Below, one piece after another: positions 40,203 through 40,689 of a stretch of DNA of 64,000 nucleotides; the first letter of the stretch is position 1; each line of letters begins with the position of its first letter. A model generated the notes under the pieces. That model ran no database searches. It was not told where the DNA came from and saw nothing but the letters and a program-made list of their open reading frames with translations. The translations under genes and the position numbers were made by a program. The stretch is from Candidatus Borrarchaeum yapensis (GTDB lineage: Archaea; Asgardarchaeota; Sifarchaeia; Borrarchaeales; Borrarchaeaceae). The stretch lies in NCBI GenBank assembly GCA_016840515.1, contig JAEOSF010000001.1:82447-146446 (forward strand). Direction: 5' to 3'.

Positions 40203-40355
40203 TCTGATCACTCAAACATATTTTAACTAGTATGGTAGGTTTAAAGTCAACTCATTTTAAATGTATTACTCTGTATTCAATTCTTCAAAAAATCAGTAAT
40301 GTTTTTAAATTAGTCTTCTATTAGGCGAGACGCATCTGATCGAGGCGGCCAGAAA

Positions 40356-40367
40356 CGTATATATATT
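40356..40367 (+). promoter_or_regulatory. TATA box of the tRNA-Cys gene
   Basis: CGTATATATATT lies 25-26 bases before the first base of the tRNA, the usual distance for an archaeal TATA box when transcription starts at or near the mature 5' end. Confidence 0.65.
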
Positions 40368-40381
40368 AAATTGAATGATAT

Positions 40382-40472
40382 GCCGGGGTAGCCTAGAGGC
40401 TGGAAATATCTCCCTCTTAGAGGCGGTGGACTGCAGATCCGCTATACGGGGGTTCAATTCCTCCCCCCGGCT
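40382..40472 (+). tRNA. tRNA-Cys (GCA) with an insertion in the D-loop, probably an intron
   Basis: Acceptor arms GCCGGGG (40382-40388) and CCCCGGC (40465-40471) pair fully, with U73, the cysteine discriminator. The anticodon arm is GTGGA-CTGCAGA-TCCGC, anticodon GCA. The T arm is GGGGG-TTCAATT-CCTCC. The D arm is GCCT..AGGC, but its loop is 26 bases instead of about 7-9. Removing 17-19 bases from about 40402 (G of CTG) to 40418-40420 gives a normal D-loop. GAGG (40396-40399) pairs with CCTC (40413-40416) between bulges CTG and TTA, a bulge-helix-bulge-like splice motif, and the D stem would be the outer helix. TAGAGGC is repeated on both sides of the insertion. The gene product is clear; the splice sites are inferred. 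Confidence 0.9.
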
Positions 40473-40506
40473 TCAATTTCTTTCTAACTATTTGTAGGTG
40501 GACAAT

Positions 40507-40689
40507 ATGAGTGAACGGGTTTCTCTTACTTTTGACGCTCTTTATGCATTAACAGACTTGCGTGAACTATGGCGAAAAACGGCTCCATTTCATTCTTTAG
40601 ATGAAAAAGAAAAAAAGAAGGCAATAAAGTTACTAAAAAGAGCACAAAAAGATATTACCAATATTTTAAACATTTTAAATGAAAAATAA
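40507..40689 (+). CDS. small hypothetical protein, 60 residues
   Basis: The ATG at 40507 has a perfect AGGTGG ribosome binding site six bases upstream. The sequence looks helical and charged: VSLTFDALYALTDLRELWRK, then DEKEKKKAIKLLKRAQKDIT. No family is recognised. It starts 34 bases after tRNA-Cys and could share its transcript. Confidence 0.6.
   Translation: MSERVSLTFDALYALTDLRELWRKTAPFHSLDEKEKKKAIKLLKRAQKDITNILNILNEK

Follow-up and report, generated by a model that had tools for sequence, protein, structure and literature searches.

Introns between tRNA positions 20 and 21 occupy a listed non-canonical site in archaea and are known mostly from Crenarchaeota, Nanoarchaeota and Thaumarchaeota (Yoshihisa 2014, PMC4090602). 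For the D-arm intron of Sulfolobus tokodaii tRNA-Glu, cleavage in the bulges of the bulge-helix-bulge (BHB) motif was confirmed with recombinant splicing endonuclease (EndA), and the archaeal intron border was measured to lie between bulge residues 2 and 3 (PMC4307357). Asgard archaea also carry interrupted tRNAs: introns were described in 92-95% of tRNA genes in Atabeyarchaeia and Freyarchaeia, often multiple and at non-canonical positions (PMC11291895), and a T-arm intron is present in the tRNA-Sec of Lokiarchaeota (PMC9499178).

The window analyzed here is a 64,000-nucleotide stretch of the genome of Candidatus Borrarchaeum yapensis, and the tRNA-Cys(GCA) gene within it was compared with these systems. 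It is like the known 20/21 introns (PMC4090602) in position class, motif, short length and the encoding of a predicted heterotetrameric EndA with a Crenarchaea-specific loop (CSL), and differs from most of them in belonging to an Asgard class and to tRNA-Cys. The S. tokodaii intron likewise lies in the D-arm, but it is crenarchaeal, interrupts another isoacceptor and has confirmed cleavage, whereas cleavage of the window tRNA is predicted. Atabeyarchaeia and Freyarchaeia are of different classes, and introns of Sifarchaeia were not described in that study (PMC11291895). Since both 20/21 introns and intron-rich Asgard tRNAs have already been published, the window D-loop intron is of a known kind; it is of the ordinary archaeal BHB type, and numerous introns at unusual positions occur in the tRNA genes of this lineage.

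One tRNA was located within the window by both ARAGORN and Rfam, at 40382-40472 on the + strand. The match to the Rfam tRNA model (RF00005) was full length, spanned precisely these positions and scored 50.6 bits. ARAGORN returned the same ends on the unspliced gene and called it Leu(TAG), because D-loop introns are not modelled by the program and the insert confuses it. The acceptor stem is GCCGGGG/CCCCGGC with a G1-C72 pair and discriminator T (U73), the D stem is GCCT/AGGC, the anticodon stem is GTGGA/TCCGC with the loop CTGCAGA, and the T stem is GGGGG/CCTCC. All positions of the acceptor, anticodon and T stems are paired, counting G-U. The anticodon GCA (40433-40435, +) was read directly and from the ARAGORN result on the spliced form, and is followed by G37. 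The CCA end is not encoded. The D-loop has 26 nt, as the original prediction had described along with the coordinates and the paired arms. The gene is probably a working cysteine tRNA gene with a small D-loop BHB intron of about 19 bases.

The whole pre-tRNA was scanned for strict BHB motifs, defined by a Watson-Crick centre of 4 bp, two 3-nt bulges and flanking helices. Exactly one was found, located in the D-loop, and shuffling of the 26-nt D-loop produced a strict motif in 0.195% of 20,000 trials. On the + strand the outer helix h is formed by the D stem strands GCCT (40391-40394) and AGGC (40421-40424), also recovered in the folds. The central helix H pairs AGAG (40395-40398), which is exonic and includes A14 and G15, with the intronic CTCT (40414-40417). 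The bulges GCT (40399-40401) and TAG (40418-40420), each of 3 nt, lie on opposite strands. The inner helix h', GGA(R)/(Y)TCC with its loop, occupies 40402-40413 and was delimited from folds and species comparison. The flanking helices thus have more than two pairs each, 4 bp in h and 3-4 bp in h'. This unique motif supports the earlier suggestion of a D-loop intron with the D stem as outer helix. A BHB had been proposed in the register GAGG/CCTC with bulges CTG and TTA; the motif is present, but as AGAG/CTCT with GCT and TAG, abutting the D stem.

With the measured rule that archaeal EndA cuts between bulge residues 2 and 3 (PMC4307357), the predicted cuts fall between GC and T and between TA and G, and therefore the predicted intron is TGGAAATATCTCCCTCTTA at 40401-40419 (+), 19 nt long and at position 20/21. 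In minimum-energy folds, registers of this hairpin shifted by one or two pairs are favoured by 1.4-1.9 kcal/mol, so that an intron of 17-19 nt is possible. This is the size range first suggested for a BHB-like intron, and it stands; the motif is however a strict hBHBh', and 19 nt is preferred because the motif is regular in all four species with this length alone. Excision of the 19 nt gave a 72-nt tRNA with a cloverleaf fold and a 7-nt D-loop (AGAGGCG), called tRNA-Cys(GCA) by ARAGORN. This rescue is not position-specific, as tRNA-Cys was also called after 104 of the 231 possible D-loop excisions, and it was not accepted as establishing precisely where the cuts lie.

Two EndA genes are encoded in the genome, separating a catalytic alpha subunit (contig C93) from a structural beta subunit (C95), as in an (alpha-beta)2 enzyme. 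The alpha subunit was matched best by the Aeropyrum pernix alpha subunit (PDB 3p1z, E 4e-42) and retains the active-site Tyr, His and Lys. It was aligned without gaps through the CSL, with KPK on A. pernix K44-P45-R46; the segment GYYGKPVGIRKPKHF was aligned to K44 of 3p1z_B and carries the pattern of Lys, then P or V, then K or R. The beta subunit is without the catalytic His, KEHSVYLV of Methanocaldococcus jannaschii EndA being aligned to GKDEAAYLV. A strict BHB would be cut by narrow-specificity EndA as well. The CSL confers broad specificity on EndA (PMC6379350, PMC12397907), and by the alignments the EndA composition of this genome is that of the predicted broad-specificity (alpha-beta)2 type. 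The endonuclease type had been named as a point to check, with D-loop introns placed mostly in crenarchaeal and related lineages with relaxed enzymes; an enzyme of predicted relaxed type with a CSL is indeed encoded, but the host, Borrarchaeum (Sifarchaeia), belongs to the Asgard archaea. KPK and the catalytic triad were present in 30/30 of the best Asgard matches (L260-L289), and broad-specificity splicing may therefore be old in Asgard archaea. These archaea are regarded as the probable source of the eukaryotic TSEN, and the distribution of KPK is relevant to its origin.

It is considered highly probable that a short BHB intron interrupts the D-loop of the window tRNA-Cys at position 20/21 and is spliced by the encoded EndA. 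In the transcript, the D stem, the AGAG/CTCT helix and the intron hairpin GGA/TCC would together form the strict hBHBh' motif, the AGAG/CTCT helix pairing the 5' half of the D-loop with the 3' end of the intron. The (alpha-beta)2 endonuclease would cut both 3-nt bulges at the predicted sites, and a tRNA ligase would join the exons to the 72-nt tRNA-Cys. Charging by the encoded SepRS would fit G1-C72, U73 and G37.

The gene was present in three congeners (G001-G003, Ca. Borrarchaeum, class Sifarchaeia) at 96-98% identity, and across the four species its upstream and downstream flanks diverge far more than the gene. The strict BHB motif was kept in 4/4 species, in each with the central helix of 4 bp. 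At pair 4 of the inner helix, G003 has A-U, G001 has G-C, and both the window gene and G002 have A.C; on the alignment this is a compensatory change, and it is the one covarying pair in the intron among four close species. Substitutions in the exons leave the stems paired, as where G-U is replaced by A-U in the T stem. Across the phylum, tRNA-Cys was sought with a sequence pattern, of which the first form was too strict and a looser form was used. An ordinary D-loop was seen in the tRNA-Cys of seven further Asgard families (f4, f5, f9, f14, f16, f27, f29), for example AGCGGTA in the intron-free L143, and for this reason gain of the intron probably took place in the Borrarchaeum lineage or close to it. 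Outside the genus, a long D-loop in tRNA-Cys was found in family f13 only (G032, L138; GCCGAGACAAAAGCGGAAATGGCTAAGGC); a clear BHB was not found in it, and BHB excision gave no product valid for ARAGORN. In the sister family of the class, searched in a bin of 80% completeness (G004), tRNA-Cys was not found.

That the long D-loop stays unspliced, the tRNA working with the 26-nt loop as an extra hairpin, was judged very improbable. The unspliced form does fold into a clean cloverleaf whose D arm bears a hairpin, and unusual D-arms are known in tRNAs; yet the hairpin has exactly the geometry of an EndA substrate, unique in the transcript, the intron-free tRNA-Cys of other Asgard families has ordinary D-loops, and D-loop inserts occur in other tRNAs of the same genome. 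An artefact of assembly or binning, for which the estimated bin contamination of 10% could be invoked, is refuted in practice by the presence of the same 91-nt gene in three further, independent Borrarchaeum genomes. The neighbouring genes also belong to the same lineage: the nearest named relative of the adjacent NDK gene is that of Ca. Borrarchaeum weybense (96%), followed by Sifarchaeum (89%).

Slightly less credence than to the unspliced form was given to the window gene being a decaying pseudogene, with the cell relying on a second, uninterrupted tRNA-Cys(GCA). Such a gene does exist (G000:C78:32094-32165; L002, L250). It is a 72-nt, bacterial-like gene whose D stem has 3 bp and which carries A37 and A73. 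CysRS is encoded 1.9 kb downstream of it, beyond intervening DUF364 genes, and a gene for a CopA-like (heavy-metal) P-type ATPase precedes it. Ca. B. weybense has kept this arrangement, on a contig of 905 kb (G002:C7:881440-881511; L242, L249). Against decay of the window gene stand its high identity in four species between strongly diverged flanks and its paired substitutions. SepRS and SepCysS read U73 and G37 of tRNA-Cys (PMC8762117, PMC9499178), and SepRS is encoded in the genome (C85, 498.7 bits). The window gene has all features of a SepRS-type tRNA-Cys (GCA, G37, G1-C72, U73), and is the only one among the GCA tRNAs found to combine U73 with G37. A second GCA tRNA had been put forward as an observation that would reduce the window gene to a pseudogene; the second gene is real, but its identity bases are different and its partner is CysRS, and it does not make the window gene a pseudogene.

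Two parallel cysteine systems are likelier than a pseudogene in the window. It is proposed tentatively, as a reading that falls somewhat short of being probable, that in Borrarchaeum the intron-bearing U73/G37 tRNA may be served by SepRS and the A73/A37 tRNA by the adjacent CysRS, the intron then marking the ancestral, tRNA-dependent route. Some methanogens have an A73 tRNA-Cys with an adjusted CysRS (PMC8762117).

The direct repeat TAGAGGC, with copies at 40394-40400 and 40418-40424 (+) 24 nt apart, had been read as a hint of origin by duplication. The repeat is real. When one unit is deleted with the spacer (24 nt), the gene shrinks to 67 nt and its D-loop to 2 nt, and a simple target duplication is unsupported because no intact precursor tRNA would result. 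The two copies are partly explained by their roles, copy 1 comprising T13 and the loop with G18-G19, while the D stem takes its 3' strand from copy 2. The intron gain in Caldiarchaeum tRNA-Thr likewise has direct repeats close to the interruption, but there they flank a mobile-element insertion (PMC3293823), whereas in the window tRNA-Cys removal of one unit leaves no usable D-loop. No further copy of TGGAAATATCTCCCTCTTA was found in the genome, and recent transposition among tRNAs is therefore unsupported for this intron.

The other tRNAs of the genome were surveyed in part, and D-loop inserts were counted as firm for the Rfam-aligned tRNA-Phe(GAA) (L003) and tRNA-Ala(TGC) (L011), in both of which 33 nt stand opposite a few D-loop positions of the model; tRNA-Ala(TGC) has an additional insert in the T-loop. 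Similar, probable D-loop inserts were seen by eye in tRNA-Asp, tRNA-Ser(TGA) and tRNA-Tyr. Automatic splicing with two introns gave plausible products for Ala(TGC), Asp(GTC) and Phe(GAA); the borders were ambiguous, for which reason only Phe and Ala were counted. Loci with firm or probable D-loop inserts were L003, L011, L116, L121 and L129 in this genome and L223, L253 and L254 in the sister family (G004), and some of these tRNAs carry extra introns in the anticodon, variable or T arm. Genes with D-loop introns are miscalled by standard tRNA finders, in this analysis as Leu or Arg or not called at all, and the tRNA inventories of Asgard genomes are distorted as a result.

T-loop introns with the centre TTCA/TGAA and the bulge AAG were observed repeatedly (L010:1501-1635, L014, L016, L017, L019), most clearly in L010 and L019, with the 5' border GTTCAAAGGA or similar. 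A pattern search for T-loop introns was too unspecific, as it gave 165 matches and the control 123. Six closely packed, intron-free tRNAs (Glu, Ala, Gly, Met, Tyr, Pro) were noted on a 179-kb contig of a congener (G002:C1:19436-19895; L228); the array resembles a mobile element or a bin contaminant.

Upstream of the window tRNA-Cys, the stretch 40313-40381 is conserved in the genus and contains a TTTTTAAAT box followed by AGGCG..GACGCATYTGATCGA; it may be a promoter and leader. Directly 3' of the tRNA, a small open reading frame at 40498-40689 (+), of 63 aa (MDNMSERVSLTFDALYALTDLRELW...), is kept in all four species.
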